Below are positions 1 through 16,819 of a stretch of 64,000 nt of DNA, piece by piece. The notes beneath the pieces are model-generated. The model saw nothing but the letters and a program-made list of their open reading frames with translations, was not told where the DNA came from and searched no databases. Source of the DNA: Taiwanofungus camphoratus (lineage: Eukaryota; Basidiomycota; Agaricomycetes; Polyporales; Taiwanofungaceae); the NCBI GenBank assembly GCA_003999685.1, contig CP021231.1, positions 1-64,000 of the forward strand. The letters run 5' to 3'. A program made the position numbers and the translations under genes. Within the stretch, counting starts at the first letter, position 1. The number at the start of each line of letters is the position of its first letter.

Positions 1-86
1 CTAACCTAACCTAACCTAACCTAACCTAACCTAACCTAACCTAACCTAACCTAACCTAACGCTAATCCTAACCTAACCTAACCTAA
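1..86. repeat. Terminal telomere tract, TTAGG pentamer
   Basis: The first 60 bases are twelve perfect copies of CTAAC, the C-rich strand of a TTAGG repeat. A short imperfect stretch (GCTAATCCTAACC...) follows and leads into the first retroelement unit. The C-rich strand at the 5' end of the + strand is the expected polarity for a left chromosome end. The usual fungal repeat is the hexamer TTAGGG, so a pentamer is unusual. Isolated hexamer units (CCCTAA) occur inside the array, for example near 4765 and 12372. Confidence 0.93.
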
Positions 87-945
87 CCGCCGGACTTACC
101 CAGTCCTGCGCTTAGGGTTGCCTTAAAATAGATAGGCGCCTTACGTGTCACGTGATATGTTCGGCACTTAGTACGGACCGGCCCTTCACTGCGGCCCGGT
201 GCGCGCCGTCCCCGCATGCTAGCGGAGCGCGCGTTAACTACTATGGTCCCCAGCGCCCCTCTGCTGTGTTAGTCCATGATCTGGTGATCTGTGGGTTGTA
301 ACATGCTAGAGCACGGTGCGGCAACTTGCTGGACGCGGTCCTATTGAGTATCCTTCCCCCGCCCCGCATGGCTCGGACAGGGTGCTCACGGGGATTCCCA
401 GGTTTGTGCCATGACATGATGCTTCCTCAGTGGTCCACGCTGCCCTTAGTAGACGCCCGGAAAAGCGGCCCGGTCACATGATCGGTGCGGTACCGGCTAA
501 TTTGTTCCTATCTATACCCGGCTCGGATTAACCTCCGGCCCGGGCTTCCTATCTGTTATCTCGGATCTTGAGCCTAGGCTTGCGATCCGGATTCTAATCT
601 TAATCAGATGACTCTGACATCTGATCAGTAATGGTGTCTAGGCGAATCTAGACAATGATGATTGCTCATCGCTGACTGATTAGGATAGGAGGGAGAGACG
701 TGATTCGCTCCCACCTACAACCCTTTGCCCTGGTTCGGTCAAATTGACTTAGTCACCGGCCCCCTGGCCATGACTCAACCATAAGCGTGACTTTGGTTGA
801 ACTTGGTTATAAGCGACGCTAGTGCTCTGATGAGACTTAGTCGAAATTAGCCGTCCGATAGCGATATCGGGCTAATTAGTACTAGCTTCCTCTAAGCCTC
901 CCCCCTGCCCTGCACTCGCAGCCCTTGTAGTGTTGATACATAGAC
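87..945 (+). repeat. PLE terminal unit 1 (left pLTR of copy 1)
   Basis: This roughly 860-bp unit starts with CCGCCGGACTT directly after TTAGG repeats and ends at CCTCCTAACC, where the repeats resume. It carries a hammerhead ribozyme about 60 bases before its end. Short inverted motifs are frequent. No conserved ORF is convincing, because the only frame found in some units has no good ATG and is broken in others. Confidence 0.85.
818..886 (+). ncRNA. Hammerhead ribozyme, unit 1
   Basis: Stem I is 9 bp (818-826 with 878-886). It is followed by the core CTGATGA (827-833), a 3-bp stem II (834-842), GAAA (843-846) and stem III, which ends at 876 and is capped by a GCGA tetraloop. T876 and T877 are the expected 16.1 and 17 positions, so cleavage is predicted between 877 and 878. 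Helix ends lie in stem I (type I topology). All core residues known to be required are present. Confidence 0.93.
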
Positions 946-1142
946 CTCCTAACCTAACCAGCCAACACCTCCAAACTGTCTCTCATACCGCATCTCGGTT
1001 TTCGACGGCGCTATCGTGTTCTGCCACCGACACCTCCGCCCGTCAACCCGATCCAGGAATACCGACTGCTCGCCCTCTGCTTCGCTCGGTGCCCAATCTC
1101 CTTTCATTTTCTCCCTCCTGACGCACCTTGCGCTTGCTTACA

Positions 1143-4100
1143 ATGGCCAATCGCCTACCTCGTCCTGGATCCACCCGTTCGACTTCCGCAGGACCAGGTG
1201 GAGCATCACTTCGCGCCGCTATTGCGCGGAACCTTGCTCCCCCCTCGTTGGCTTATGCCATGGGAGCGACGTCACTTGAGACTATTGCCGATGAGTTCCG
1301 CGCCGTCCTTTCAGCTGAAACATTTGACACCGTATTATCAGTCGTGCCTCTCGTATACCGGGAGGTACTCCGCCCGGTTCTGGCTAGCATTGCGGAAGCA
1401 AAGGAACGCTGCGTTTCTTTGTCGAAGCAAGTGGGTGAGCTCGAGGCTCATCTTGCCAGCGGTTCCCTTCCGCCCCAGTTACAAGGCATGGGGGAACCCG
1501 TTTTCCAGTCTGCGAAAGCATGGCTGGAAACACACCCGGCGGAACCAGGGGCTCTTGCGGAGAAATTTAAAACGTTTCGCCGCGAAGCACTCGCTTTAGC
1601 CATTGCGCAGAAGCGTGCTGAGCTCTCGTTCTTCGAGGGCGCGCTGGACCCTACTACCATGTTGGGGAAGGCGCGCGACGTGGTCGACACTCAGTGGGCT
1701 GCGATCTCACAAGGATCGCGGGTCCCTAAGTGGAGAACCTCTCTTGACGGGAACGTCGAGATTGAGGGTTGGCAGAACGACCCCGTCCTTGAGTCGGAAC
1801 ACAAGCGATTCGTCGCTGTGCTCCCCCGCTTTTGCTTTCGTGTCGTGAACATTCGCGAATCACAGTTAGCTCATGCGGCGACTCGAGCCAGTGCGAAGAG
1901 TGCCCTTAAAGCAGTGGCGGAGGTGGAGATGAGCGACACCACCGAGAACCCCGCTGCTTTAAAGAAACTGATTGACGATGCGGTTGATCGTCGGTTGAAA
2001 GGTGAGGGCACCTCGAAGAACGTAAAACAACAGGTCAGTTTTGTACACGGTTCAGTACCTAAAGACTTACCTGGCGCCACCCTCTCTCGTATTCTAGAAG
2101 GGCAAAGGCAAGGCGCCAAATCGTTCGGCGCGCATGAGCACAGGAGGACGCCCTCCCAAAGCTCCGCAGCGCGCGGCAAAGCAGAAGCAGGCCGCTTCGT
2201 CGAAGAAAGCTTCGACGAAGAAGAACAAAGGGAAAGGGAAAGGGAGACCGAATTGATACGGTGTGTCCTTCGGTCGCGACTCCGCTTCTCGCAACCTTCC
2301 ACTTACCCTGATTGCATACTTGATCTTCCTACACCAGTCGGGGCACGCACCCTCCTTTACTTTGCACCGGCGGCTTTAGTCGAGGCACAGAGGTTCCGGA
2401 CTTGGGTTCATGTTGGCGACGGTGTTAGTTTACCTGCGGATATCAGTATACATATTTCTTGCGGACTTAAGTACATGCTGTACGCTCGTCCTTCAGGCGA
2501 GTTAGTTCAAAACGCTTATGATGACTTTTGTGAACGTGTACGATGGAGAGTACACTTTGCCTGTAAACAAAAGATCCTTGAGCGGCAAGGGATTAGTCAA
2601 CCACCATATGATCCTGACTACGACTTGAGATTAAAGCGCGATAGCAACGCGCCTCAAGCCAGCCAATATATCGAACTTGGTCTTAAACGCGGGCAAACAT
2701 ACGTCACTGAATTCATACGCAATGTCGTACCCGGTTTGAAAGCCAGAAGTCGCCCTAATCGACTTGTGGACCTGGACAAAGTTCGCCTCTGGCTGGATGA
2801 GCATAACTACCTCATCCTCCAAACGGATAAGAACCTCGGTGCTGCTGTAGTCACAAGGGAATGGTTCATTAATGGTTGCAACTTACTTCTATCGAATACG
2901 GCTGACTATCAGGAAATTAATCCTGGTCAGCGACAGATGTACTTAGAAAAGGTTACTAAGCGGGTTAAGGAGTTAAGCGATTGGGTCGAAGGGGCTATGC
3001 CTCACGATCAGACACTCCAGTTAGCCAAATACCTTCGGTCTAAATGTCCCGAGAGCGAGTTGGATGAGCCTAAGGTTCCCATCTTCTATGGTATCCCAAA
3101 AATCCACAAGACACCGGTGAAGATGCGGCCGATTGTGCCCTGTCACTCATGCGCTCAAGGCCCCGCGGCTAAAGTAGTATCCAAGTTGTTGAAACCTATT
3201 ATAGAGGCTGAACCCTTTATTATACATGGCAGCAAAGACCTTGCTGGTAAGTTAGCAACGGTTAAAACACTAAAATACAAAAAGTATTGGCTTGTGGCCG
3301 GCGACGTTGTCGCTTTCTACCCCAATGTACCCCTCAGAGAATGCGTTGGCATTGTATCTAAATTGTACATTAGTCATCCACTGGGTAGTCAATCCACGGA
3401 CCACCCCGAATTTTACAACGCCTTGTTTATTCGGTGTATGCAATCGGCCAATTACGATCTAATAGTTGACTTCAACGGTCACACATTTCTTCAAAAGCGT
3501 GGATTAGCAATGGGTGTGGCGTGTTCGCCCGACCTTGCTAATCTATATGGATGCCATTTTGAAAATAAAGTCTGGCCTTCTGGGCAGGTTAGCCCACCCT
3601 TTCTTTATTATGGGCGGTACATCGATGATGTATTTGCTATCGTTGAAGCAGGTAGTGCAGCTGAGGCACTTGAACTCTGCACCAGTCGTATTTCTTACAC
3701 TGGCTGTACTATAACATGGGAAGTGTCGGAATGGGCAACGCCGTTCCTTGACATGCTTATTTATATTGACCCCGTAACCAACCGGGTGGAACATAAGCCG
3801 TATCGGAAGGCACTTAACCATCATGAAAGAATACCATGGATATCTCACCATCCAAAGGACGTTAAAAAAGGCACGTTCATTGGAGAGATGAGCCGTTTAG
3901 CCACGCTAAGTTCTAAGTTGGAACACTACTTAGATGCCCTTAAAGGGCTTGTCGATTTGTACATCGGCCGTGGTTATCCTCCTGCTCTGGTTATTGCATG
4001 GCTTGATTCACATAAAGCAGTACGCTGGGCGAAACGTTTGGAAACTAAACAAACTTCGACCAAAGCGGCGGATGCGAATGATGGCGTACTTGTAATTAAG

Positions 4101-4667
4101 TCGCAATTTAACCCTTCATGGGATTCTTTCGATATTCATGAATTAATGACACGAGTCACCGGATCTTGGGTGGAGTCTTTGAGTTTCTTCAAAAACTTCT
4201 TTTCGGCGAGTTGGGAAAACTCGGCCGCTCCGATTTTCGATTATTCGGCTGGGGGTTCGCGGGATGCGACCCTATCCGGCACAGTTCAGACCACGCTTGA
4301 GGAGTGGTGGGATCCCGCCCGAGTAGCCCAGCGCAAGCTGTCGCGCGAAACGGCGGCTGCTTCGGCAGCAGCAGATCGTGCCGCCGCTGAAGCCCGGCGG
4401 TCTGATCAAATCTCTAACCTGGCGGCGGTCGTCCATGATAACCGCGCAGAAGAGGGCTGGGTATGGACTGGGCGGTACCTAAGGAAACCCACCGGATTTA
4501 TTGAGGCGGAGAAGGTTGCAGACCTTTCCCAACTCGGATTCTTAGACAAGCGCTGGCTTGTGTCTCGAAAGCGGGAAACCAATTTCGCAGACTTAACAAG
4601 TAAATGGCGCAGAAGTGTTATTAATGCCCAAAGTGCGGATGACGTACTTCTGGAAATGGATATATAA
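1143..4667 (+). CDS. Penelope-like reverse transcriptase, copy 1
   Basis: This is an intronless ORF of 1174 aa. I start it at the ATG at 1143, because the frame is open only a few codons further upstream from a TTG. Motifs in order are PKIHK (652-656), the A-type motif GDVVAFYPN (720-728), GLAMG (787-791) and YIDD (826-829), followed by FLDM. Together they mark a Penelope-family reverse transcriptase. The long N-terminal part has a charged segment rich in Glu and Arg. The C-terminal part has an Ala/Arg-rich helical stretch near 1070-1090. I see no GIY-YIG endonuclease module, so new copies probably prime on an existing 3' end, here the telomere. It differs from the second copy at roughly three dozen residues by eye, with many silent changes between them, which suggests selection on the protein. 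Confidence 0.95.
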   Translation: MANRLPRPGSTRSTSAGPGGASLRAAIARNLAPPSLAYAMGATSLETIADEFRAVLSAETFDTVLSVVPLVYREVLRPVLASIAEAKERCVSLSKQVGELEAHLASGSLPPQLQGMGEPVFQSAKAWLETHPAEPGALAEKFKTFRREALALAIAQKRAELSFFEGALDPTTMLGKARDVVDTQWAAISQGSRVPKWRTSLDGNVEIEGWQNDPVLESEHKRFVAVLPRFCFRVVNIRESQLAHAATRASAKSALKAVAEVEMSDTTENPAALKKLIDDAVDRRLKGEGTSKNVKQQVSFVHGSVPKDLPGATLSRILEGQRQGAKSFGAHEHRRTPSQSSAARGKAEAGRFVEESFDEEEQRERERETELIRCVLRSRLRFSQPSTYPDCILDLPTPVGARTLLYFAPAALVEAQRFRTWVHVGDGVSLPADISIHISCGLKYMLYARPSGELVQNAYDDFCERVRWRVHFACKQKILERQGISQPPYDPDYDLRLKRDSNAPQASQYIELGLKRGQTYVTEFIRNVVPGLKARSRPNRLVDLDKVRLWLDEHNYLILQTDKNLGAAVVTREWFINGCNLLLSNTADYQEINPGQRQMYLEKVTKRVKELSDWVEGAMPHDQTLQLAKYLRSKCPESELDEPKVPIFYGIPKIHKTPVKMRPIVPCHSCAQGPAAKVVSKLLKPIIEAEPFIIHGSKDLAGKLATVKTLKYKKYWLVAGDVVAFYPNVPLRECVGIVSKLYISHPLGSQSTDHPEFYNALFIRCMQSANYDLIVDFNGHTFLQKRGLAMGVACSPDLANLYGCHFENKVWPSGQVSPPFLYYGRYIDDVFAIVEAGSAAEALELCTSRISYTGCTITWEVSEWATPFLDMLIYIDPVTNRVEHKPYRKALNHHERIPWISHHPKDVKKGTFIGEMSRLATLSSKLEHYLDALKGLVDLYIGRGYPPALVIAWLDSHKAVRWAKRLETKQTSTKAADANDGVLVIKSQFNPSWDSFDIHELMTRVTGSWVESLSFFKNFFSASWENSAAPIFDYSAGGSRDATLSGTVQTTLEEWWDPARVAQRKLSRETAAASAAADRAAAEARRSDQISNLAAVVHDNRAEEGWVWTGRYLRKPTGFIEAEKVADLSQLGFLDKRWLVSRKRETNFADLTSKWRRSVINAQSADDVLLEMDI

Positions 4668-4855
4668 ACTGTTAAGTCAGTTTGATTAGCATCGGTTACA
4701 TCAGGTGTAACGTTATCTTAGTGTGTTGGTGTATTAGGGTTGTCTGTTCAAACCAGACCTAACCTAACCCTAACCTAACCTAACCTAACCTAACCGAACC
4801 TAACCTAACCTAACCTAACCTAACCTAACGCTAATCCTAACCTAACCTAACCTAA
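4668..4855 (+). repeat. PLE 3' UTR and internal telomeric tract, copy 1
   Basis: A short 3' UTR after the stop contains a hairpin (GTTACA...TGTAAC near 4694-4710) and a TCTG...CAGA hairpin just before the repeats. From about 4758 there are some 15 CTAAC-type repeats with a CCCTAA variant and a CCGAACC variant. The same variants occur at the same places after the second copy's ORF (11352-11450), so the tract looks element-borne rather than freshly added by telomerase. Confidence 0.8.
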
Positions 4856-5715
4856 CCGCCGGACTTACCCAGTCCTGCGCTTAGGGTTGCCTTAAAATAG
4901 ATAGGCGCCTTACGTGTCACGTGATATGTTCGGCACTTAGTACGGACCGGCCCTTCACTGCGGCCCGGTGCGCGCCGTCCCCGCATGCTAGCGGAGCGCG
5001 CGTTAACTACTATGGTCCCCAGCGCCCCTCTGCTGTGTTAGTCCATGATCTGGTGATCTGTGGGTTGTAACATGCTAGAGCACGGTGCGGCAACTTGCTG
5101 GACGCGGTCCTATTGAGTATCCTTCCCCCGCCCCGCATGGCTCGGACAGGGTGCTCACGGGGATTCCCAGGTTTGTGCCATGACATGATGCTTCCTCAGT
5201 GGTCCACGCTGCCCTTAGTAGACGCCCGGAAAGCGGCCCGGTCACATGATCGGTGCGGTACCGGCTAATTTGTTCCTATCTATACCCGGCCCGGATTAAC
5301 CTCCGGCCCGGGCTTCCTATCTGTTATCTCGGATCTTGAGCCTAGGCTTGCGATCCGGATTCTAATCTTAATCAGATGACTCTGACATCTGATCAGTAAT
5401 GGTGTCTAGGCGAATCTAGACAATGATGATTGCTCATCGCTGACTGATTAGGATAGGAGGGAGAGACGTGATTCGCTCCCACCCGCAACCCTTTGCCCTG
5501 GTTCGGTCAAATTGACTTAGTCACCGGCCCCCTGGCCATGACTCAACCATAAGCGTGACTTTGGTTGAACTTGGTTATAAGCGACGCTAGTGCTCTGATG
5601 AGACTTAGTCGAAATTAGCCGTCCGATAGCGATATCGGGCTAATTAGTACTAGCTTCCTCTAAGCCTCCCCCCTGCCCTGCACTCGCAGCCCTTGTAGTG
5701 TTGATACATAGACCT
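4856..5715 (+). repeat. PLE terminal unit 2 (right pLTR of copy 1)
   Basis: This is nearly identical to unit 1 over its whole length, including the tail after the ribozyme (CCCCCCTGCCCTGCACTCGC). Only a few substitutions and a one-base length change were seen. Confidence 0.85.
5586..5654 (+). ncRNA. Hammerhead ribozyme, unit 2
   Basis: The 69-nt sequence is identical to the unit 1 ribozyme, with CTGATGA and GAAA cores intact. Predicted cleavage is between 5645 and 5646. Together with the unit 1 site this would release an RNA of about 4768 nt holding the whole ORF. Confidence 0.92.
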
Positions 5716-5779
5716 CCTAACCTAACCTAACCTAACCTAACCTAACCTAACGCTAAATCCTAACCTAACCTAACCTAAC

Positions 5780-6628
5780 TGAAGGCGCTATCGCGCCTTC
5801 TCCATTTGGTAGCTTTGGGAAATAAGATGCTCGTCACGTGACTTGCCCGAGAGGGCCGGCCATGTAACCAGCATCCAGGCACGGACCGGTTGAGCCGCAA
5901 GGCTGGACTGGCCTGGGCACTACCTAGTTATGGTCACCAGCGCCCCTCTGCTGTGTTAGTCCATGATCCGGTGATCTGTGAGGTGTAACATGCTATGGCA
6001 CGGTGCGGCAACTTGCCGGACGCGGTCCTAGTGAATATCCCGCCCCCGCCCCGCATGGCTCGGTGAGGGTGTTCCTAGGGATCCTCAGGTTTGTGCCGTG
6101 ACATGATGCTTCCTCAGTGGTCCACGCTGCCCTTATCTAGGCGCCCGGAAGTCGGACCGGTCATGTGACTCGGTCGGCACCGGCCCGGATTGTTCTATTC
6201 CCACCCTGTCATCCTAACCGATGATAAGGGATCTCTTATCTATGAGTCATGTCAAATGACTCCTTATCTTTACATCTGATTGTTATCTCTGATCAGGTGG
6301 CGGTATTGGTAAAGGCTAGGGCGTTCTAGCCTGCTTTTTGTCGGCCCGCTGATAAGAGATAAAGAGAAATAGCTCTAATGTGATTGGAGCTTATCACTAC
6401 CTTATGGTCTGGTTGGTCAAATTGAATCAGTCATCGGCCTCTGACCGATGACTCAGGGTCGATCAGCTGATGACCCTGAACCATCGGTTAAAAGTACGAC
6501 GAGAGTACTGATGAGCTCTTAGCGAAACAAGTTGGTATCTGGCGACAGATACTATTGTTTACTCTTGTCTTCTCTATTTTTCTCATCTCTTACTACGCTC
6601 GCCCGCCTATCGGCGGTCTCGCTCCACC
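5780..6628 (+). repeat. Divergent PLE terminal unit 3 (second subfamily, no ORF)
   Basis: The unit is flanked on both sides by TTAGG-strand repeats. Its first 200 bases differ from the other units apart from a perfect hairpin (GAAGGCGC-TATC-GCGCCTTC). The middle (about 5930-6190) is recognisably homologous to the others, and the 3' third has diverged again but keeps a ribozyme. No ORF-bearing partner of this subfamily lies in the window. Confidence 0.8.
6498..6569 (+). ncRNA. Hammerhead ribozyme, unit 3 (divergent)
   Basis: Stem I is 10 bp with one G-T pair (6498-6507 with 6560-6569). The core CTGATGA is at 6508-6514, stem II is GCT/AGC and GAAA is at 6524-6527. Stem III begins CAA/TTG, and a 7-bp inner helix is capped by GCGA. 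Stem sequences differ from the main type while the pairing is kept. Predicted cleavage is between 6559 and 6560. Confidence 0.92.
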
Positions 6629-6676
6629 TCCTAACCTAACCTAACCTAACGCTAATCCTAACCTAACCTAACCTAA

Positions 6677-7538
6677 CCGCCGGACTTTCCCAGTCCTGCG
6701 CTTAGGGTTGCCTTAAAATAGATAGGCGCCTTACGTGTCACATGATATGTTCGGCACTTAGTACGGACCGGCCCTTCATCGCGGCCCGGTACGCGCCGTT
6801 CCCGCATGCTAGCGGAGCGCGCGATAACTACTATGGTCCCCAGCGCCCCTCTGCTGTGTTAGTCCATGATCTGGTGATCTGTGGGTTGTAACATGCTAGA
6901 GCACGGTGCGGCAACTTGCTGGACGCGGTCCTGATGAGTATCCTTCCCCCGCCCCGCATGGCTCGGACAGGGTGCTCCCGGGGATTCCCAGGTTTGTGCC
7001 ATGACATGATGCTTCCTCAGTGGTCCACGCTGCCCTTAGTAGACGCCCGGAAAGCGGCCCGGTCACATGATCGGCGCGGCACCGGCTATGTTGTTCCTAT
7101 CTATATCCGGCCCGGATTAACCTCCGGCCCGGACTTCCTATCTCTTATCTCGGATCTTAAGCCTAGACTTGAGGTCCGGATTCTAATCTTAATCAGATGA
7201 CTCTGACATCTGATCAGTAATGGTGTCTAGGCGAATCTAGACAATGATGATTGCTTATCGCTGACTGATTAGGATAGGAGGGAGAGACGTGATTCGCTCC
7301 CACCCGCAACCCTTTGCCCTGGTAAGGTCAAATTGACTTAGTCACCGGCCCCCGGGCCATGACTCAACCATAAGCGTGACTTTGGTTGAACTTGGTTATA
7401 AGCGACGCTAGTGCTCTGATGAGACTTAGTCGAAATTAGCCGTCCGATAGCGATATCGGGCTAATTAGTACTAGCTTCTCCTAAGCCTCTTCCTTTCTTA
7501 GCGCACCAACAGCACCTGCGGCGCTGTTGTCTCCTCCT
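6677..7538 (+). repeat. PLE terminal unit 4 (left pLTR of copy 2)
   Basis: The unit starts with CCGCCGGACTTTCC after telomeric repeats and ends at CTCCTCCTCCTAACC. It differs from unit 1 at scattered positions and in its tail. It is followed after a few repeats by the 5' leader of the second ORF. Confidence 0.85.
7407..7475 (+). ncRNA. Hammerhead ribozyme, unit 4
   Basis: The 69-nt sequence is the same as in unit 1, with predicted cleavage between 7466 and 7467. Confidence 0.92.
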
Positions 7539-7734
7539 CCTAACCTAACTAGTCAGCGCCTTCCAAACTGTCTCTCATACCGCATCTCGGTTTTCGACGG
7601 CGCTATCGAGTCCTGCCACCGACACCTCCGCCTGTCAACCCGATCCAGGAATACCGACTGCTCGCCCTTTGCTTCGCTAGGTGCCCCATCTCCTTCCACT
7701 TTCTTCCTCCTGAGACACCTTGCGCTTGCTTGAC

Positions 7735-10700
7735 ATGGCCAATCGCCTACCTCGTTCTGGATCCACCCGTTCGTCTTCCGCAGGACCAGGTGGAGCATCA
7801 CTTCGCGCCGCTATTGCGCGGAACCTTGCTCCCCCCTCGTTGGCTTATGCCATGGGAGCGACGTCACTTGAGACTATTGCCGATGAGTTCCGCGCCGTCC
7901 TTTCAGCCGAAACATTTGACACAGTGTTATCAGTCGTGCCTCTCGTATACCGGGAGGTACTCCGCCCGGTTTTGGCTAGCATTGCGGAAGCGAAGGAACG
8001 CTGCGTTTCTTTGTCGAAGCAAGTGGGTGAGCTCGAGGCTCATCTTGCCAACGGTTCCCTTCCGCCCCAGTTACAAGGCATGGGGGAACCCGTTTTCCAG
8101 TCAGCGAAAGTTTGGCTGGAAACACACCCGGCGGAACCAGGGGCTCTTGCGGAGAAATTTAAAACGTTTCGCCGCGAAGCACTCGCTTTAGCCATTGCGC
8201 AAAAGCGTGCTGAGCTCACGTTCTTTGAGGGCGCGCTGGACCCTACTACCATGTTGGGGAAGGCACGCGACGTGGTCGATTCACAATGGGCTGCGATCTC
8301 GCAAGGATCGCGTGTCCCTAAGTGGAGAACTTCTCTCGACGGGAACGTCGAGATCGAAGGTTGGCAGAACGACCCCGTCCTCGAGTCGGAACACAAGCGA
8401 TTCGTCGCTGTGCTCCCGCGGTTTTGCTTCCGTGTCGTGAACATTCGCGAATCACAGTTAGCACATGCCGCGACTCGAGCCAATGCAAAGAGTGCCCTCA
8501 AGGCAGTGGCGGAGGTAGAAATGAGTGATACCACCGAGAACCCCGCTGCCTTGAAGAAGTTGATTGATGATGCTGTGGATCGTCGGTTGAAAGGTGAGGG
8601 CACCTCAAAGAACGTTAAACAACAGGTGAGTTTTGTACATGGTTCAGTACCAAAAAACTTACCCGGCGCCGCTCTCCTCCGTATTTTAGAAGGGCAAAGG
8701 CAAGGCGCCAAATCGTTCGGCGCGCATGAGCACAGGAGGACGCCCTCCCAAAGCTCCGCAGCGCGCGGCAAAGCAAAAGCAGGCCGCTTCATCGAAGAAA
8801 GCTTCGACGATGAAGAAGAACAAAGGGAAAGGGAAAGGGAGACCGAATTAATACGGTCAGTACTTCGGTCGCGACTCAGATTTTCGCAACCCTCAACTTA
8901 CCCTGATGAAATACTTGATCTACCCACTCCAGTCGGGGCACGCACCCTCCTTTACTTTGCACCGGCTGCTTTAGTCGAGGCTCAGAGGTTCCGGACTTGG
9001 GTTCATGTTGGCGACGGAGTTAGTTTACCTGCGGAGATCAGTATTCATATTTCTTGCGGACTTAAGTACATGCTGTACGCTCGCCCTTCTGGCGAGTTGG
9101 TTCAAAACGCTTATGATGATTTTTGTGAAAGAATTCGGTGGAGAGTTCATTTCGCCTGCAAACAAAAGATTCTTGAGCGGCAAGGAATAAGTCAACCACC
9201 ATATGACCCAGACTACGACTTGAGATTAAAGCGCGATAGCAACGCACCTCAAGCCAGCCAATATATCGAACTTGGTCTTAAACGCGGGCAAACATACGTC
9301 ACTGAATTCATACGCACTGTCGTACCCGGTTTGAAAGCTAGGAGTCGCCCTAATCGACTCGTAGACCTGGACAAAGTTCGCCTCTGGTTGGACGAACATA
9401 ACTACCTCGTCCTCCAAACGGATAAGAACCTCGGTGCTGCTGTAGTCACAAGGGAATGGTTCATTAATGGTTGCAACCTACTTCTGTCTAATACGGCTGA
9501 CTATCAGGAAATTAATCCTGGTCAGCGACAGATGTACTTAGAAAAGGTTACTAAGCGGGTTAAGGAGTTAAGCGATTGGGTCGAAGGGGCTTTGCCTCAT
9601 GATCAGACACTCCAGTTAGCCAAATTTCTTCGGTCAAAATGTCCCGAGAGCGAGTTGGATGAGCCTAAGGTTCCCATCTTCTACGGTATCCCAAAAATCC
9701 ATAAGACACCGGTGAAGATGCGGCCTATTGTGCCATGTCACTCTTGCGCTCAAGGACCCGCGGCTAAAGTAGTATCCAAGTTGTTGAAACCTATTATAGA
9801 GGCTGAACCCTTTATTATACATGGTAGTAAAGATCTTGCTGCCAAGTTAGCAACGGTTAAAACACTAAAATATAAAAAGTATTGGCTTGTGGCCGGCGAC
9901 GTTGTCGCCTTCTACCCTAATGTACCACTCAGAGAATGCGTTGGCATTGTCTCAAAACTGTATATTAGTCATCCATTGGGTAGTCGAACTACGGACCACC
10001 CCGAATTCTACAACGCCTTGTTTATTCGGTGTATGCAATCGGCCAATTATGATTTAATAGTTGACTTCAACGGTCACACATTTCTTCAAAAGCGTGGGTT
10101 AGCAATGGGAGTGGCATGTTCGCCCGACCTTGCTAATCTTTATGGATGCCATTTTGAAAATAAAGTCTGGCCTTCTGGGCAGGTTAGCCCACCCTTTCTT
10201 TATTATGGGCGTTACATCGATGATGTTTTCGCTATCGTTGAAGCAGGTAGTGCAGCAGAAGCACTTGAACTCTGTACCAGTCGTATTTCTTACACTGGTT
10301 GTACTATAACATGGGAAGTGTCGGAATGGGCAACGCCATTCCTTGACATGCTTATTTATATTGACCCCGTTACCAACCGGGTGGAACATAAGCCGTATCG
10401 GAAGGCACTTAACCATCATGAAAGAATACCATGGATATCTCACCATCCAAAGGACGTTAAAAAAGGCACGTTCATTGGGGAGATGAGCCGTTTAGCCACG
10501 CTAAGTTCTAAGTTGGAACATTACTTAGATGCCCTTAAAGGGCTTGTCGATTTGTACGTCGGCCGTGGCTATCCCCCTGCTCTGGTTGTTGCATGGCTTG
10601 ACGCACATAAAGCAGTACGCTGGGCGAAACGTTTGGACATTAAACAAACTTCGACCGAAGCGGCGGACGCGAATGATGGCGTACTTGTACTTAAGTCGCA

Positions 10701-11262
10701 ATTTAACCCTTCATGGGATTCTTTCGATATTCATGAATTAATGACACGAGTCACCGGATCTTGGGTGGAGTCTTTGAGTTTTTTCAAAAACTTCTTTTCG
10801 GCGAGTTGGGAAAACTCGGCCGCCCCGATTTTCGATTATTCGGCTGGGGGTTCGCGGGATGCGACCCTATCCGGCACAGTTCAGACCACGCTTGAGGAGT
10901 GGTGGGATCCCGCCCGAGTAGCCCAGCGCAAGCTGTCGCGCGAAACGGCGGCTGCTTCGGCAGCAGCAGATCGTGCCGCCGCTGAAGCCCGGCGGTCTGA
11001 TCAAATCTCTAACCTGGCGGCGGTCGTCCATGACAACCGCGCAGAAGAGGGCTGGGTATGGACTGGGCGGTACCTAAGGAAACCCACCGGATTTATCGAG
11101 GCGGAGAAGGTCGCAGACCTTTCCCAACTCGGATTCTTAGACAAGCGCTGGCTTGTGTCTCGGAAGCGGGAAACCAATTTCGCAGATTTAGCAAGTAAAT
11201 GGCGCAGAAGTGTTATTAATGCCCAAAGTGCAGATGATGTACTTTTGGAAATGGATATATAA
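7735..11262 (+). CDS. Penelope-like reverse transcriptase, copy 2
   Basis: This is an intronless ORF of 1175 aa, starting at the ATG at 7735. It is about 97% identical to copy 1 by eye, with one extra acidic residue in the charged segment near residue 350. All reverse transcriptase motifs (PKIHK, GDVVAFYPN, GLAMG, YIDD) are conserved one residue further along than in copy 1. No GIY-YIG endonuclease is visible. Both copies being open for more than 1170 codons in one subtelomere suggests recent activity. The enzyme is expected to copy the element RNA onto a telomeric 3' end. That mechanism is known for the family and inferred here from position and orientation. Confidence 0.95.
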   Translation: MANRLPRSGSTRSSSAGPGGASLRAAIARNLAPPSLAYAMGATSLETIADEFRAVLSAETFDTVLSVVPLVYREVLRPVLASIAEAKERCVSLSKQVGELEAHLANGSLPPQLQGMGEPVFQSAKVWLETHPAEPGALAEKFKTFRREALALAIAQKRAELTFFEGALDPTTMLGKARDVVDSQWAAISQGSRVPKWRTSLDGNVEIEGWQNDPVLESEHKRFVAVLPRFCFRVVNIRESQLAHAATRANAKSALKAVAEVEMSDTTENPAALKKLIDDAVDRRLKGEGTSKNVKQQVSFVHGSVPKNLPGAALLRILEGQRQGAKSFGAHEHRRTPSQSSAARGKAKAGRFIEESFDDEEEQRERERETELIRSVLRSRLRFSQPSTYPDEILDLPTPVGARTLLYFAPAALVEAQRFRTWVHVGDGVSLPAEISIHISCGLKYMLYARPSGELVQNAYDDFCERIRWRVHFACKQKILERQGISQPPYDPDYDLRLKRDSNAPQASQYIELGLKRGQTYVTEFIRTVVPGLKARSRPNRLVDLDKVRLWLDEHNYLVLQTDKNLGAAVVTREWFINGCNLLLSNTADYQEINPGQRQMYLEKVTKRVKELSDWVEGALPHDQTLQLAKFLRSKCPESELDEPKVPIFYGIPKIHKTPVKMRPIVPCHSCAQGPAAKVVSKLLKPIIEAEPFIIHGSKDLAAKLATVKTLKYKKYWLVAGDVVAFYPNVPLRECVGIVSKLYISHPLGSRTTDHPEFYNALFIRCMQSANYDLIVDFNGHTFLQKRGLAMGVACSPDLANLYGCHFENKVWPSGQVSPPFLYYGRYIDDVFAIVEAGSAAEALELCTSRISYTGCTITWEVSEWATPFLDMLIYIDPVTNRVEHKPYRKALNHHERIPWISHHPKDVKKGTFIGEMSRLATLSSKLEHYLDALKGLVDLYVGRGYPPALVVAWLDAHKAVRWAKRLDIKQTSTEAADANDGVLVLKSQFNPSWDSFDIHELMTRVTGSWVESLSFFKNFFSASWENSAAPIFDYSAGGSRDATLSGTVQTTLEEWWDPARVAQRKLSRETAAASAAADRAAAEARRSDQISNLAAVVHDNRAEEGWVWTGRYLRKPTGFIEAEKVADLSQLGFLDKRWLVSRKRETNFADLASKWRRSVINAQSADDVLLEMDI

Positions 11263-11450
11263 ACTGTTAAGTCAGTTTGATTAGCATCGGTTACATCAGG
11301 TGTAACGTTATCTTAGTGTGTTGGTGTATTAGGGTTGTCTGTTCAAACCAGACCTAACCTAACCCTAACCTAACCTAACCTAACCTAACCGAACCTAACC
11401 TAACCTAACCTAACCTAACCTAACGCTAATCCTAACCTAACCTAACCTAA
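11263..11450 (+). repeat. PLE 3' UTR and internal telomeric tract, copy 2
   Basis: This matches the 3' UTR and telomeric tract of copy 1 almost base for base, including the CCCTAA and CCGAACC variant repeats. Confidence 0.8.
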
Positions 11451-12312
11451 CCGCCGGACTTTCCCAGTCCTGCGCTTAGGGTTGCCTTAAAATAGATAGG
11501 CGCCTTACGTGTCACATGATATGTTCGGCACTTAGTACGGACCGGCCCTTCATCGCGGCCCGGTACGCGCCGTTCCCGCATGCTAGCGGAGCGCGCGATA
11601 ACTACTATGGTCCCCAGCGCCCCTCTGCTGTGTTAGTCCATGATCTGGTGATCTGTGGGTTGTAACATGCTAGAGCACGGTGCGGCAACTTGCTGGACGC
11701 GGTCCTGATGAGTATCCTTCCCCCGCCCCGCATGGCTCGGACAGGGTGCTCCCGGGGATTCCCAGGTTTGTGCCATGACATGATGCTTCCTCAGTGGTCC
11801 ACGCTGCCCTTAGTAGACGCCCGGAAAGCGGCCCGGTCACATGATCGGCGCGGCACCGGCTATGTTGTTCCTATCTATATCCGGCCCGGATTAACCTCCG
11901 GCCCGGACTTCCTATCTCTTATCTCGGATCTTAAGCCTAGACTTGAGGTCCGGATTCTAATCTTAATCAGATGACTCTGACATCTGATCAGTAATGGTGT
12001 CTAGGCGAATCTAGACAATGATGATTGCTTATCGCTGACTGATTAGGATAGGAGGGAGAGACGTGATTCGCTCCCACCCGCAACCCTTTGCCCTGGTAAG
12101 GTCAAATTGACTTAGTCACCGGCCCCCGGGCCATGACTCAACCATAAGCGTGACTTTGGTTGAACTTGGTTATAAGCGACGCTAGTGCTCTGATGAGACT
12201 TAGTCGAAATTAGCCGTCCGATAGCGATATCGGGCTAATTAGTACTAGCTTCTCCTAAGCCTCTTCCTTTCTTAGCGCACCAACAGCACCTGCGGCGCTG
12301 TTGTCTCCTCCT
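11451..12312 (+). repeat. PLE terminal unit 5 (right pLTR of copy 2)
   Basis: No differences from unit 4 were noticed by eye over the full length, including the tail. Confidence 0.85.
12181..12249 (+). ncRNA. Hammerhead ribozyme, unit 5
   Basis: The 69-nt sequence is the same as in unit 1, with predicted cleavage between 12240 and 12241. With unit 4 it would free an RNA of about 4774 nt carrying ORF 2. Confidence 0.92.
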
Positions 12313-12342
12313 CCTAACCTAACCTAACCTAACCTAACCTAA

Positions 12343-12372
12343 CTCCTTCGTCGTTGCTCGCTCCACCTCCTA
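12343..12372 (+). repeat. Extreme 5'-truncated PLE unit (tail only)
   Basis: Between two telomeric tracts lie about 30 bases (TCCTTCGTCGTTGCTCGCTC and onward) that match only the last bases of units 6 and 7, downstream of their ribozymes. It looks like a copy in which synthesis stopped almost at once before telomere repeats were re-added. Confidence 0.75.
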
Positions 12373-12406
12373 ACCCTAACGCTAATCCTAACCTAACCTA
12401 ACCTAA

Positions 12407-13259
12407 CCGCCGGACTTACCCAGTCCTGCGCTTAGGGTTGCCTTAAAATAGATAGGCGCCTTACGTGTCACGTGATATGTTCGGCACTTAGTACGGACCG
12501 GCCCTTCACTGCGGCCCGGTGCGCGCCGTCCCCGCATGCTAGCGGAGCGCGCGTTAACTACTATGGTCCCTAGCGCCCCTCTGCTGTGTTAGTCCATGAT
12601 CTGGTGATCTGTGGGTTGTAACATGCTAGAGCACGGTGCGGCAACTTGCTGGACGCGGTCCTATTGAGTATCCCTCCCCCGCCCCGCATGGCTCGGATGG
12701 GGTGCTCACGGGGATTCCCAGGTTTGTGCCATGACATGATGCTTCCTCAGTGGTCCACGCTACCCTTAGTAGACGCCCGGAAAAGCGGCCCGGTCACATG
12801 ATCGGTGCGGCACCGGCTATGTTGTTCCTATCTATGTCCGGCCCTGACTAACCTCCGGCCCGGACTTCCTATCTCTTATCTCGGATCTTGAGCCTAGGCT
12901 TACGGTCCGGATTCTAATCTTAATCAGATGACTCTGACATCTGATCAGTAATGGTGTCTAGGCGAATCTAGACAATGATGATTGCTTATCGCTGACTGAT
13001 TAGGATAGGAGGGAGAGACGTGATTCGCTCCCACCCGCAACCCTTTGCCCTGGTAAGGTCAAATTGACTTAGTCACCGGCCCCCGGGCCATGACTCAACC
13101 ATAAGCGTGACTTTGGTTGAACTTGGTTATAAGCGACGCTAGTGCTCTGATGAGACTTAGTCGAAATTAGCCGTCCGATAGCGATATCGGGCTAATTAGT
13201 ACTAGCTTCCATTAAGTCTTCTCAACGCTCGCAACTCCTTCGTCGTTGCTCGCTCCACC
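12407..13259 (+). repeat. PLE terminal unit 6 (pLTR only)
   Basis: This is a full-length terminal unit without an ORF, flanked by telomeric repeats on both sides. Its tail (CATTAAGTCTTCTCAACGCT) is shared with unit 7 but not with the two ORF-bearing elements. Confidence 0.83.
13138..13206 (+). ncRNA. Hammerhead ribozyme, unit 6
   Basis: The 69-nt sequence is the same as in unit 1, with predicted cleavage between 13197 and 13198. Confidence 0.92.
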
Positions 13260-13317
13260 TCCTAACCTAACCTAACCTAACCTAACCTAACGCTAATCCT
13301 AACCTAACCTAACCTAA

Positions 13318-14170
13318 CCGCCGGACTTACCCAGTCCTGCGCTTAGGGTTGCCTTAAAATAGATAGGCGCCTTACGTGTCACGTGATATGTTCGGCACTT
13401 AGTACGGACCGGCCCTTCACTGCGGCCCGGTGCGCGCCGTCCCCGCATGCTAGCGGAGCGCGCGTTAACTACTATGGTCCCTAGCGCCCCTCTGCTGTGT
13501 TAGTCCATGATCTGGTGATCTGTGGGTTGTAACATGCTAGAGCACGGTGCGGCAACTTGCTGGACGCGGTCCTATTGAATATCCTTCCCCCGCCCCGCAT
13601 GGCTCGGATAGGGTGTTCACGGGGATTCCCAGGTTTGTGCCATGACATGATGCTTCCTCAGTGGTCCACGCTACCCTTAGTAGACGCCCGGAATGCGGCC
13701 CGGTCACATGATCGGTGCGGCACCGGCTATGTTGTTCCTATCTATGTCCGGCCCGGACTAATCTCCGGCTCGGACTTCCTATCTCTTATCTCGGATCTTA
13801 AGCCCAGGCTTTCGGTCCGGATTCTAATCTTAATCAGATGACTCTGACATCTGATCAGTAACGGTGTCTAGGCGAATCTAGACAATGATGATTGCTTATC
13901 GCTGACTGATTAGGATAGGAGGGAGAGACGTGATTCGCTCCCACCCGCAACCCTTTGCCCTGGTAAGGTCAAATTGACTTAGTCACCGGCCCCCGGGCCA
14001 TGACTCAACCATAAGCGTGACTTTGGTTGAACTTGGTTATAAGCGACGCTAGTGCTCTGATGAGACTTAGTCGAAATTAGCCGTCCGATAGCGATATCGG
14101 GCTAATTAGTACTAGCTTCCATTAAGTCTTCTCAACGCTCGCAACTCCTTCGTCGTTGCTCGCTCCACCT
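13318..14170 (+). repeat. PLE terminal unit 7 (pLTR only)
   Basis: This is a full-length unit that shares its tail and most variants with unit 6. The pair may come from one source RNA or from a local duplication. Confidence 0.83.
14048..14116 (+). ncRNA. Hammerhead ribozyme, unit 7
   Basis: The 69-nt sequence is the same as in unit 1, with predicted cleavage between 14107 and 14108. Confidence 0.92.
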
Positions 14171-14205
14171 CCTAACCTAACCTAACCTAACCTAACCTAA
14201 CCTAA

Positions 14206-15069
14206 CCGCCGGACTTACCCAGTCCTGCGCTTAGGGTTGCCTTAAAATAGATAGGCGCCTTACGTGTCACGTGATATGTTCGGCACTTAGTACGGACCGG
14301 CCCTTCACTGCGGCCCGGTGCGCGCCGTCCCCGCATGCTAGCGGAGCGCGCGATAACTACTATGGTCCCCAGCGCCCCTCTGCTGTGTTAGTCCATGATC
14401 TGGTGATCTGTGGGTTGTAACATGCTAGAGCACGGTGCGGCAACTTGCTGGACGCGGTCCTATTGAATATCCTTCCCCCGCCCCGCATGGCTCGGATAGG
14501 GTGTTCACGGGGATTCCCAGGTTTGTGCCATGACATGATGCTTCCTCAGTGGTCCACGCTGCCCTTAGTAGACGCCCGGAAAGCGGCCCGGTCACATGAT
14601 TGGTGCGGCACCGGCTATGTTGTTCCTATCTATGCCCGGCCCGGATTAACCTCCGGCCCGGACTTCCTATCTCTTATCTAGTCACCTGAGGCCTAGGCCC
14701 CAGGTCTGGATTCTAATCTTAATCAGATGACTCTGACATCTGATCAGTAATGGTGTCTAGGCGAACCTAGACAATGTCTTTTGCTTGGCGCTGACTGATT
14801 AGGATAGGAGGGAGAGACGTGATTCGCTCCCACTTGCAACCCTTTGCCCTGGTACGGTCAAACTGATTTAGTCACCGGCCCCCGGGCCATGACTCAACCA
14901 TAAGCGTGACTTTGGTTGAACTTGGTTATAAGCGACGCTAGTGCTCTGATGAGACTTAGTCGAAATTAGCCGTCCGATAGCGATATCGGGCTAATTAGTA
15001 CTAGCTTCTCCTAAGCCTCTTCCTTTCTTAGCGCACCAACAGCACCTGCGGCGCTGTTGTCTCCTCCTC
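14206..15069 (+). repeat. PLE terminal unit 8 (pLTR only)
   Basis: This is a full-length unit with the tail type of element copy 2. Its central part (14680-14790) is more diverged than in the other units. Confidence 0.83.
14937..15005 (+). ncRNA. Hammerhead ribozyme, unit 8
   Basis: The 69-nt sequence is the same as in unit 1, with predicted cleavage between 14996 and 14997. Confidence 0.92.
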
Positions 15070-15084
15070 CTAACCTAACCTAAC

Positions 15085-15541
15085 CGGCTAAGCTGTTCCT
15101 ATCTATACCCGGCCCAGACTAACCTCCGGCCCGGGCTTCCTATCTCTTATCTCGGATCTTGAGCCTAGGCTTGAGGTCTGGATTCTAATCTTAATCAGAT
15201 GACTCTGAACATCTGATCAGTAATGGTGTCTAGGCGATTCTAGACAATGTTGATTGCTCAGCGCTGATTGATTAGGATAGGAGCGAGAGACGTGATTCGC
15301 TCCCACCTGCAACCCTTTGCCCTGGTACGGTCAAACTGATTTAGTCACCGGCCCCCGGGCCATGACTCAACCATAAGCGTGACTTTGGTTGAACTTGGTT
15401 ATAAGCGACGCTAGTGCTCTGATGAGACTTAGTCGAAATTAGCCGTCCGATAGCGATATCGGGCTAATTAGTACTAGCTTCTCCTAAGCCTCTTCCTTTC
15501 TTAGCGCACCAACAGCACCTGCGGCGCTGTTGTCTCCTCCT
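15085..15541 (+). repeat. PLE unit 9, 5'-truncated
   Basis: The unit begins abruptly at CCGGCTAAGCTGTTCC after telomeric repeats, which corresponds to the middle of a full unit. The 3' half with ribozyme and tail is complete. Loss of the 5' side only is the pattern expected from incomplete reverse transcription. Confidence 0.83.
15410..15478 (+). ncRNA. Hammerhead ribozyme, unit 9
   Basis: The 69-nt sequence is the same as in unit 1, with predicted cleavage between 15469 and 15470. Confidence 0.92.
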
Positions 15542-15557
15542 CCTAACCTAACCTAAC

Positions 15558-16021
15558 CGGCTAAGCTGTTCCTATCTATACCCGGCCCAGACTAACCTCC
15601 GGCCCGGGCTTCCTATCTCTTATCTCGGATCTTGAGCCTAGGCTTGAGGTCTGGATTCTAATCTTAATCAGATGACTCTGAACATCTGATCAGTAATGGT
15701 GTCTAGGCGATTCTAGACAATGTTGATTGCTCAGCGCTGATTGATTAGGATAGGAGCGAGAGACGTGATTCGCTCGCACTTGCAACCCTTTGCCCTGGTT
15801 TAGTCAAACTGACTTAGTCACCGGCCTCCGGGCCATGACTCAACCATAAGCATGACTTTGGTTGAACTCGGTTAAAATCGACAGCTAGTGCTCTGATGAG
15901 ACTTAGTCGAAATTAGCTGCCCGCCCCTCCATAGGCGAGCTAATTAGTACTAGCTTCCTCTAAGTCCTCCTTTCAAGCCCGTATCGCACTCGCAGCACCT
16001 GCGGCGCTGCTCGCTCCACCT
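15558..16021 (+). repeat. PLE unit 10, 5'-truncated, innermost
   Basis: The unit starts at exactly the same internal breakpoint as unit 9, with an offset of 473 bases. The first 230 bases or so are almost identical to unit 9, then the 3' half diverges, including stem III of the ribozyme and the tail. It is the last PLE-derived unit before the chromosome-internal sequence. Confidence 0.82.
15884..15954 (+). ncRNA. Hammerhead ribozyme, unit 10 (variant stem III)
   Basis: Stem I, CTGATGA, stem II and GAAA are as in the main type. Stem III keeps ATTAGCT/AGCTAAT, but its inner part is replaced by a CGCC/GGCG helix with a loop that is not GNRA. Predicted cleavage is between 15945 and 15946. Confidence 0.88.
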
Positions 16022-16819
16022 CCTAACCTAACCTAACCTAACCTAACCGGAGAACCTGGTTTTCCATAGGCCCCCTCATGGAAGAAACCCTATAAGTAGA
16101 TGATATGAGTCATCAGGCCATATTAGCAATATGTATGCGTAAGACGGAATGTATGAGCGAGGCCCAGTATGAGTCAAAGCTCATAAGTAAGCAGAGCCCA
16201 TCCGAAGCCCATACAGTAAGCAGCCCTGAGTCAATGGACTGCACGAAGAAGCTGGACCTACCTGAGGCCCATCTGATAAACGAAAGGTTACGGGACTGAT
16301 CTGAGGTCCAACTGATAAGATACAAGAGTAAAGAAATTATATCAGCATGATTTCAAAGTGTACTGAGAAAAAGGGACTCCTCAACCACCTTTTACTGTTG
16401 TTCAAGTTTGTTGTTCAAGTTTGCAAGATTATGAAAATATATGTACATAGAAAGAGTGAAAATTTTTGAGTGTAGTGAATGCAAGAATCATGAGGATGCC
16501 GATTTTGAGGGGGTGCCGAATACCTTATAGCAGCTCCAGTGCTTATGAGTTTCGCCAGGTATCGCCATAAGCAGGTGTGTTGCCAGCCTGGCGATCGCCG
16601 TCGCTGGTGATGGCGAGTCTCGCCGGCGACAGCCATCTCCTGTGCTAGCAGATGAATGCAGCGGCATAAAACCCTAACCCTAGACATTCGGTGTTGGCTC
16701 GGCCGGGAGATGTTCCGACTCAGGTCCCGCCACCTCAGTTCACTCTGACCAGTTTCCTCATCGGCGTATTGTACGACTTGCGTACAGCCCCTGAAGGCCT
16801 CTTTTTTCTCCATCAATAA
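16022..16819. other. Array-to-gene transition, no gene seen
   Basis: A last short run of CTAAC repeats (about 16023-16048) is followed by roughly 770 bases without a supportable gene. Small ORFs on both strands lack family features or ATG-supported context. Imperfect short repeats of the type GAGGCCCA..TGATAA occur near 16200-16320. The right end must hold the promoter of the dihydrolipoyl dehydrogenase gene. Confidence 0.5.

Follow-up and report, generated by a model that had tools for sequence, protein, structure and literature searches.

In this study, we analyzed a window of 64,000 nucleotides (the whole stretch of DNA considered here) from the fungus Taiwanofungus camphoratus (assembly GCA_003999685.1, contig CP021231.1, positions 1–64,000 of the forward strand). 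The left 16 kb of the window was found to contain an array of hammerhead-bearing repeats, made of ten U blocks and two bodies (R1 and R2) coding for a putative reverse transcriptase (RT), with CCTAA tracts between them. The blocks were arranged in the order U1-R1-U2-U3-U4-R2-U5-(tail fragment)-U6-U7-U8-U9-U10, followed by other sequence. The ten units shared one orientation and all ended in CCTAA repeats. Each U closed with a type I hammerhead, a tail of 54–66 nucleotides (nt) and CCTAA repeats, in agreement with an initial annotation of this DNA that had placed one hammerhead near the 3′ end of each unit. A full element was composed of U, CCTAACC, the RT body, a telomeric tract and U; its size was about 4.8 kb for the RT body plus one U and 5.6 kb with both U copies. 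Each RT body was preceded by the tail and CCTAACCTAAC(C) and followed downstream by a telomeric tract. U9 and U10 began about 500 nt later than the full U, and the tails, of five types, were far more variable than the hammerhead. The start of the window probably represents the real chromosome end, and a blastn search (E ≤ 1e-3) found no array sequence beyond 16.1 kb in the window. The features of the array are given below.

1–88, + strand: telomeric CCTAA tract with the irregular unit GCTAATCC near its end (repeat and unit analysis)
89–947, + strand: U1, terminal repeat resembling a pseudo long terminal repeat (pLTR), on the 5′ side of RT body 1 (aligned positions 99.7% identical with U2)
887–947, + strand: hypervariable tail, from hammerhead to telomeric repeats (unit and column comparison)
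948–959, + strand: CCTAACCTAACC, lying between U1 and the first RT body, where the telomere G-overhang is proposed to anneal (putative role)
960–4757, + strand: RT body 1, with 5′ leader, open reading frame (ORF) and 3′ untranslated region (UTR) (unit comparison)
4757–4857, + strand: internal telomeric tract of element 1 (101 of 101 positions identical to 11352–11452)
4858–5715, + strand: U2, terminal repeat downstream of RT body 1 (unit comparison)
5780–6629, + strand: U3, divergent unit (aligned positions 62% identical with U1)
6679–7538, + strand: U4, terminal repeat on the 5′ side of RT body 2 (identity with U5 of 100%)
7539–7549, + strand: CCTAACCTAAC between U4 and RT body 2 (unit analysis)
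7550–11352, + strand: RT body 2 (94.8% identical to RT body 1)
11352–11452, + strand: internal telomeric tract of element 2 (repeat analysis)
11453–12312, + strand: U5, terminal repeat downstream of RT body 2 (unit comparison)
12344–12368, + strand: tail-only fragment of 25 nt between telomeric repeats (identical to the tail ends 13236–13260 and 14146–14170)
12409–13260, + strand: U6, no RT body (unit comparison)
13320–14170, + strand: U7, no RT body (unit comparison)
14208–15068, + strand: U8, no RT body (unit comparison)
15086–15541, + strand: U9, 5′-truncated (unit analysis)
15559–16021, + strand: U10, 5′-truncated, innermost unit (unit analysis)

The hammerheads were examined with a strict descriptor (CTGANGA, GAAA, stem I of at least 5, stem II of at least 3 and stem III of at least 3 pairs, a U-H cleavage site, type I only), which followed the general rules for hammerheads but was drawn up with the motifs already known. 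All ten motifs passed on the + strand of the window, at the places proposed initially, and the − strand of the window gave no match. The conserved core CUGANGA...GAAA with a U-H cleavage site was present in each of the ten, as were the pairs of three helices with stem I open; stem II contained 3 base pairs closed by a 3-nt loop. Eight copies were identical across the 69 nt of the hammerhead, as annotated earlier, and the four cut positions predicted there (878, 5646, 6560 and 7467) fell on the same bases with the descriptor, which added six more. In 200 dinucleotide shuffles of the window, counted on both strands, the mean number of descriptor matches was 0.005 and the maximum was 1. The loose pattern CTGATGAN{3,30}GAAA gave 12 matches in the window against 1.53 expected, and the two that lay outside the array failed the strict descriptor. 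The ten motifs are listed with the start of the core and the first base after the predicted cut.

818–886, + strand: hammerhead 1 (descriptor and fold), core from 827, predicted cleavage before 878
5586–5654, + strand: hammerhead 2 (descriptor), core from 5595, predicted cleavage before 5646
6498–6569, + strand: hammerhead 3, covarying version (descriptor and pair comparison), core from 6508, predicted cleavage before 6560
7407–7475, + strand: hammerhead 4 (descriptor), core from 7416, predicted cleavage before 7467
12181–12249, + strand: hammerhead 5 (descriptor), core from 12190, predicted cleavage before 12241
13138–13206, + strand: hammerhead of U6 (descriptor), core from 13147, predicted cleavage before 13198
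14048–14116, + strand: hammerhead of U7 (descriptor), core from 14057, predicted cleavage before 14108
14937–15005, + strand: hammerhead of U8 (descriptor), core from 14946, predicted cleavage before 14997
15410–15478, + strand: hammerhead of U9 (descriptor), core from 15419, predicted cleavage before 15470
15883–15955, + strand: hammerhead 10, third version with a different distal stem III (descriptor and fold), core from 15893, predicted cleavage before 15946

Three sequence versions of the hammerhead were found: the main version, shared by eight copies without a difference, that of unit 3 and that of the tenth copy. With eight copies alike, the motifs amount to three independent sequences and not to ten. 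Of the 16 pairs counted in comparing unit 3 with the main version, 9 had changed on both sides, 1 had changed on one side, 6 were the same and none was broken, which bears out the earlier statement that unit 3 differs in all three stems yet stays paired. Twenty positions were examined in this comparison, and the four lying beyond the stem ends were excluded (position 10 of stem I, which has no pair in unit 1, and positions 5–7 of stem III, which have none in unit 3). Relative to unit 1, stem I of unit 3 contained 5 pairs changed on both sides, 1 changed on one side and 3 the same, followed by 2 changed on both sides and 1 the same in stem II, and 2 changed on both sides and 2 the same in stem III, A15.1-U16.1 included. 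When the 3′ letters of unit 3 were redealt, all pairs were restored in 0 of 200,000 trials. The catalytic core was unchanged between the two versions; CTGATGA, GAAA and the T-T cleavage dinucleotide were constant, as had been noted. In the tenth copy the inner stems were kept, the seventh position of stem III had changed on both sides and the tenth pair of stem I was gained, whereas the distal stem III was different and devoid of the GCGA cap. The cap, described initially for both of the versions recognized then, was therefore present in two of the three versions (main and unit 3). With the hammerhead fold imposed, helix III contained 11–13 pairs, and a bulge of 2–3 nt was present on the 5′ side of stem III in all three versions. 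The pairs of a hairpin lying upstream were compared in the same way.

775–800, + strand: hairpin P2 upstream of hammerhead 1 (pair comparison with the unit 3 homologue at 6453–6479)

Between unit 1 and unit 3, 4 of the 7 pairs of this hairpin had changed on both sides and 3 were the same; the eighth position, unpaired in unit 1, was left uncounted. Among the seven full-length U copies (U1, U2 and U4–U8), the hammerhead contained no variable column. The edge of this invariance was sharp, as 0 of 120 columns varied at 769–888 and 25 of 40 in the next 40. When U9 was added, 56 of 409 stretches of hammerhead length were without a variable column.

As judged from sequence, selection on the hammerhead structure is well supported by the compensating changes round a constant core. 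The initial annotation had proposed selection on an active ribozyme; the covariation upholds the structural part of this proposal, whereas the activity is only predicted and a competing fold is favored in all versions. It is very improbable that the motifs are products of chance or composition rather than hammerheads under selection, since 0.005 are expected per window and nine double changes left 0 of the 16 counted pairs broken, even though no Rfam family matched at threshold and eight of the ten copies are one sequence.

Each element contained one long ORF, as follows.

1143–4667, + strand: ORF 1, 1,174 amino acids from ATG, reverse transcriptase with a weak PF00078 match (Pfam and ORF comparison)
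7735–11262, + strand: ORF 2, 1,175 amino acids from ATG, reverse transcriptase (ORF comparison)

Both ORFs were intact, with 1143 of 1175 aligned columns identical. The synonymous divergence (dS) between them was 0.20 and the nonsynonymous divergence (dN) was 0.013; the low dN/dS of 0.067 argues that the RT protein has been selected for. The only Pfam match with E < 0.001 was RVT_1 (E 2.2e-5, 24.7 bits), whereas the other matches (DUF463, DUF5829 and, in a search by pieces that omitted 2262–2741, two more) were weaker than 0.003 and below their cutoffs. NCBIfam gave weak RT matches, for ORF 1 only. No Pfam match to an endonuclease domain, GIY-YIG included, was found at E ≤ 1 in either whole ORF. 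No RT relative was confirmed in viral contigs or in prokaryote genomes, the latter searched with the RT core only. We take the YIDD active site and the IPKIHK...RPIV stretch to resemble those of the RTs of Penelope-like elements (PLEs), and the element appears to be Penelope-like by architecture. As the array carries two RT ORFs, the retrotransposon whose terminal repeats contain the hammerheads is an autonomous one of the telomere.

We consider it probable that the array is a stack of telomere-attached, endonuclease-lacking retrotransposons of the Penelope type. The sequence itself shows the anatomy, the intact and selected RT ORFs, the covariation of the hammerhead and ten copies that run unbroken over the cleavage site, whereas transcription, cleavage, priming at the overhang and Penelope-like ancestry are putative. 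Coprina is a fungal group of endonuclease-deficient PLEs, which the array resembles by architecture and fungal host. The name Coprina is used in PMC6515669. Endonuclease-deficient PLEs are primed from chromosome ends, are present in fungi and carry telomeric repeats at truncated 5′ ends (PMC3846280); the array likewise has an RT in which no endonuclease was found, a position at a chromosome end and 5′-truncated copies by telomeric repeats. The Terminons/Athena of bdelloid rotifers contain C-rich telomeric repeats just downstream of the 3′-terminal hammerhead, as the array would at the 3′ end of its RNA, and also form head-to-tail arrays (PMC6431247). In the array a tail of 54–66 nt precedes the repeats in all ten units, whereas in Terminons the repeats lie immediately downstream; Terminons are giant and have several accessory ORFs, whereas the element of the array has 5.6 kb, one long ORF and CCTAA repeats. 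It seems quite improbable that the element belongs instead to a different clade of telomeric non-LTR retrotransposons (the MoTeR or SART/TRAS type). The weak and generic RVT_1 match would permit it, and MoTeR1 is a fungal telomeric element (PMC10088271), but both whole proteins lacked an endonuclease domain at E ≤ 1, and flanking hammerhead repeats with C-rich telomeric repeats have been described for PLEs and Terminons.

All available PLE sequences carry hammerhead motifs (PMC6155905), most of them without helix III or tertiary contacts (PMC6155905, PMC7761336). The array copies are like these minimal hammerheads of PLE pseudo-LTRs in being of type I, in occurring in both terminal repeats and in their short stem II, and no loop-loop contact was seen in them by eye; they differ in the 11–13 pairs of helix III (imposed folds). 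Retrozymes also contain a hammerhead in each terminal repeat, and the U-only units of the array are about 0.9 kb long. Both PLEs and retrozymes had been named initially as comparators; retrozymes are non-autonomous and spread via circular RNA, whereas the array carries an RT of its own. Hammerheads called with Rfam have been reported in a mushroom genome (PMC5040776), and a study of mushroom-forming fungi removed hammerheads with Rfam (PMC8893723). Among the literature matches listed, no paper on hammerheads in fungal telomeric PLEs was recognized, the key primary papers lying outside that coverage. Hammerheads of PLE repeats, fungal telomeric PLEs and a hammerhead beside telomeric repeats in Terminons are already known; the fungal combination, the long helix III and the covarying second version were not met among the matches listed, primary papers aside, and may have been described before.

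A number of observations weigh against the Penelope-type reading. The RVT_1 score of 24.7 bits was below the Pfam curated cutoff of 29.6; searches of the PDB with the RT gave no match or one chance-level match, and an AlphaFold2 model from two sequences had a mean pLDDT of 32 and was discarded. Lack of variation is weak evidence by itself: among the seven full-length U copies, 79 of 790 stretches of hammerhead length were invariant like the hammerhead, and with U9 and U10 added the hammerhead contained 12 variable columns, which was the median. The competing fold was more stable than the hammerhead by 3.1, 1.0 and 1.7 kcal/mol in the main, unit 3 and tenth versions, respectively, in energies that omit tertiary contacts. 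No Rfam family reached the gathering threshold anywhere in the window, so the covariance-model check put forward initially came out negative. At E ≤ 10 on 1–16500, RF03152 (RAGATH-1-hammerhead) was listed at only 5 of 10 sites, with E-values of 2.1 to 6.2, and unrelated families had lower E-values (mir-345, 0.95). In one lizard PLE, hammerhead mutants are reported to have left insertion in vitro unchanged, and no RNA-seq reads ended at the cleavage site (PMC11167929).

On the same 1–16500, Rfam gave 20 matches in all, among which RF03152 had the most bits, and RF00008 was found below threshold at 1 of 10 sites. Four sites with the same 69 nt were unlisted, presumably because the speed filters had removed them. 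When short stretches were searched, RF03152 came first by both bits and E-value, with E-values of 0.015 for the main version, 0.65 for unit 3 and 0.068 for the tenth copy. The array copies have the CUGAUGAGACUU...GAAA block in common with this family, whereas their best score was 24.9 bits against a cutoff of 56.3. The hammerhead region was found to fold stably (z −3.3 to −5.4 in five stretches), a value that concerns the minimum-energy fold and not the hammerhead itself. Self-cleavage of the array hammerheads is predicted. The residue preceding the predicted cut was U, and U before the cut site is a slower choice for hammerhead cleavage.

The hammerhead fold might instead act as a structural 3′-end signal for the RT or expose the C-rich repeat, with catalysis incidental or lost. 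This appears somewhat unlikely. In its favor, each of the ten copies passes without a break over the cleavage site into telomeric repeats, which means that the RNA was not cut when copied; each version has a competing fold of slightly higher stability, a hammerhead fold has been described as exposing adjacent C-rich repeats (PMC6431247), and insertion was unaffected by hammerhead mutants (PMC11167929). However, CTGATGA, GAAA and the U-U site were kept in unit 3 though the surroundings are about 50% identical, and a purely structural signal would have no need of the catalytic core.

Under the Penelope-type reading, the + strand (C-rich sense) would be transcribed from the chromosome tip inward, and the C-rich repeat after the tail would pair with the G-rich chromosome overhang. 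The overhang would prime reverse transcription back through the tail, the hammerhead and U into the RT body, and the new end would be capped by telomerase. Cleavage of the transcript at the upstream hammerhead would set the 5′ end of the RT message, whereas the downstream hammerhead would cut or shape the 3′ end of the RNA. Priming by the overhang, as in endonuclease-deficient PLEs and Terminons, agrees with the orientation of the units and with their C-rich 3′ repeat. A hammerhead-cut RNA could yield only the tail if its copying began at the CCTAA that follows the tail. All ten U copies were continuous across the cleavage site into telomeric repeats, which under this model means that the RNA was copied either uncut or after re-ligation. 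The 5′ hammerhead may trim the message and the 3′ hammerhead be slow or have a structural part; alternatively, circles may be used. The array makes the role of the hammerhead testable, because ten copies cross the cleavage site and the copied RNA would have been uncut or re-ligated. It offers two intact elements, ten sites, strongly different ribozyme versions and clear predictions of RNA ends, in a host fungus that may be culturable. A ribozyme, a proposed telomeric priming site and terminal repeats are joined here in one short unit.

U1/U2 and U4/U5 bracket the RT bodies as pseudo-LTRs. Over aligned positions, U1 and U2 were 99.7% identical and U4 and U5 100%, whereas U1 and U4 were 93.8% and the RT bodies 94.8% identical. 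A linear U-R-U copied whole would make the upstream U copies alike and the downstream copies alike; instead, the match lies within the element, which is explained by gene conversion or by two passes over a template with a single U (by way of a circle or a template jump). In the circular form of the template explanation, which we regard as doubtful, both U hammerheads would cut, the monomer would be ligated to a circle, the overhang would prime on CCTAACCTAACC and the RT would round the circle more than once. Rolling in this way would yield U-RT-U with two matching repeats from one template, and seamless copies across the cleavage site. If so, this would be an autonomous retrotransposon making its 'LTRs' by rolling round a ribozyme-made circle at the telomere. 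That the near-identity of the U copies round each RT body reflects tandem duplication or gene conversion, and not a transposition mechanism, is plausible, if somewhat short of probable. U6 and U7, which are adjacent without an RT body, were also 98.6% identical, and four-gamete tests on U gave 6 or 7 minimum recombination intervals, by the copies used. U4, U5, U6 and U7 were all identical in 701–886, and U8 contained the tail of U4/U5 with a different body. Over the whole of U, however, the flanking copies were each other's closest relatives in both elements.

Recombination centered on the cleavage site was considered, as the interval 736–890 (716–890 with fewer copies) spans the hammerhead; it is not claimed, because five or six other intervals lie elsewhere. 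The two elements (4668–4857 and 11263–11452) did not differ in the 3′ UTR (90 of 90 positions) or in the internal telomeric tract (101 of 101 positions), whose irregular repeats were shared as well, whereas the dS of the ORF was 0.20. Selection was considered as the cause of this identity; since divergence is low in the final part of the ORF too, gene conversion is an equally likely cause.

In a block of about 210 nt (247–455 and 5935–6147), unit 3 had an identity of about 88% with the main units, which fell to about 50% in the flanks. A structured RNA was rejected here, with a fold z-score of −0.28 and 2 of 77 pairs with double changes in RNAalifold, and Rfam gave no match to the block at E ≤ 5. 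The block may be a promoter, a binding site or a trace of old recombination.

The irregular telomeric unit GCTAATCC (GCTAAATCC before U3) was found about 20 nt ahead of U in 7 of 8 full-length units, in the stretches 61–88, 4830–4857, 5752–5779, 6651–6678, 11425–11452, 12381–12408 and 13292–13319. From this recurrence, part of the telomeric tract seems to be copied with the element and not made by telomerase. In viral contigs the exact hammerhead core pattern gave 0 matches, and a looser core pattern was found in 8 contigs. One of these, L006 (an IMG/VR contig), passed the hammerhead descriptor at position 3512, with stems of 5, 3 and 7, whereas the other seven failed. The genes neighboring the array include dihydrolipoyl dehydrogenase (apparently interrupted by short introns), ApoO and phosphomannose isomerase. 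A bacterial-type promoter scan was uninformative for a eukaryote. The DNA by itself also points to a basidiomycete as the probable host. The telomere repeat at 1–60 of the window was the five-letter TTAGG. By published accounts, (TTAGG)n telomeres occur in Rhizoctonia (where the methods say TTAGGG) and Boletus edulis, and TTAGGG telomeres in most of 21 basidiomycetes.

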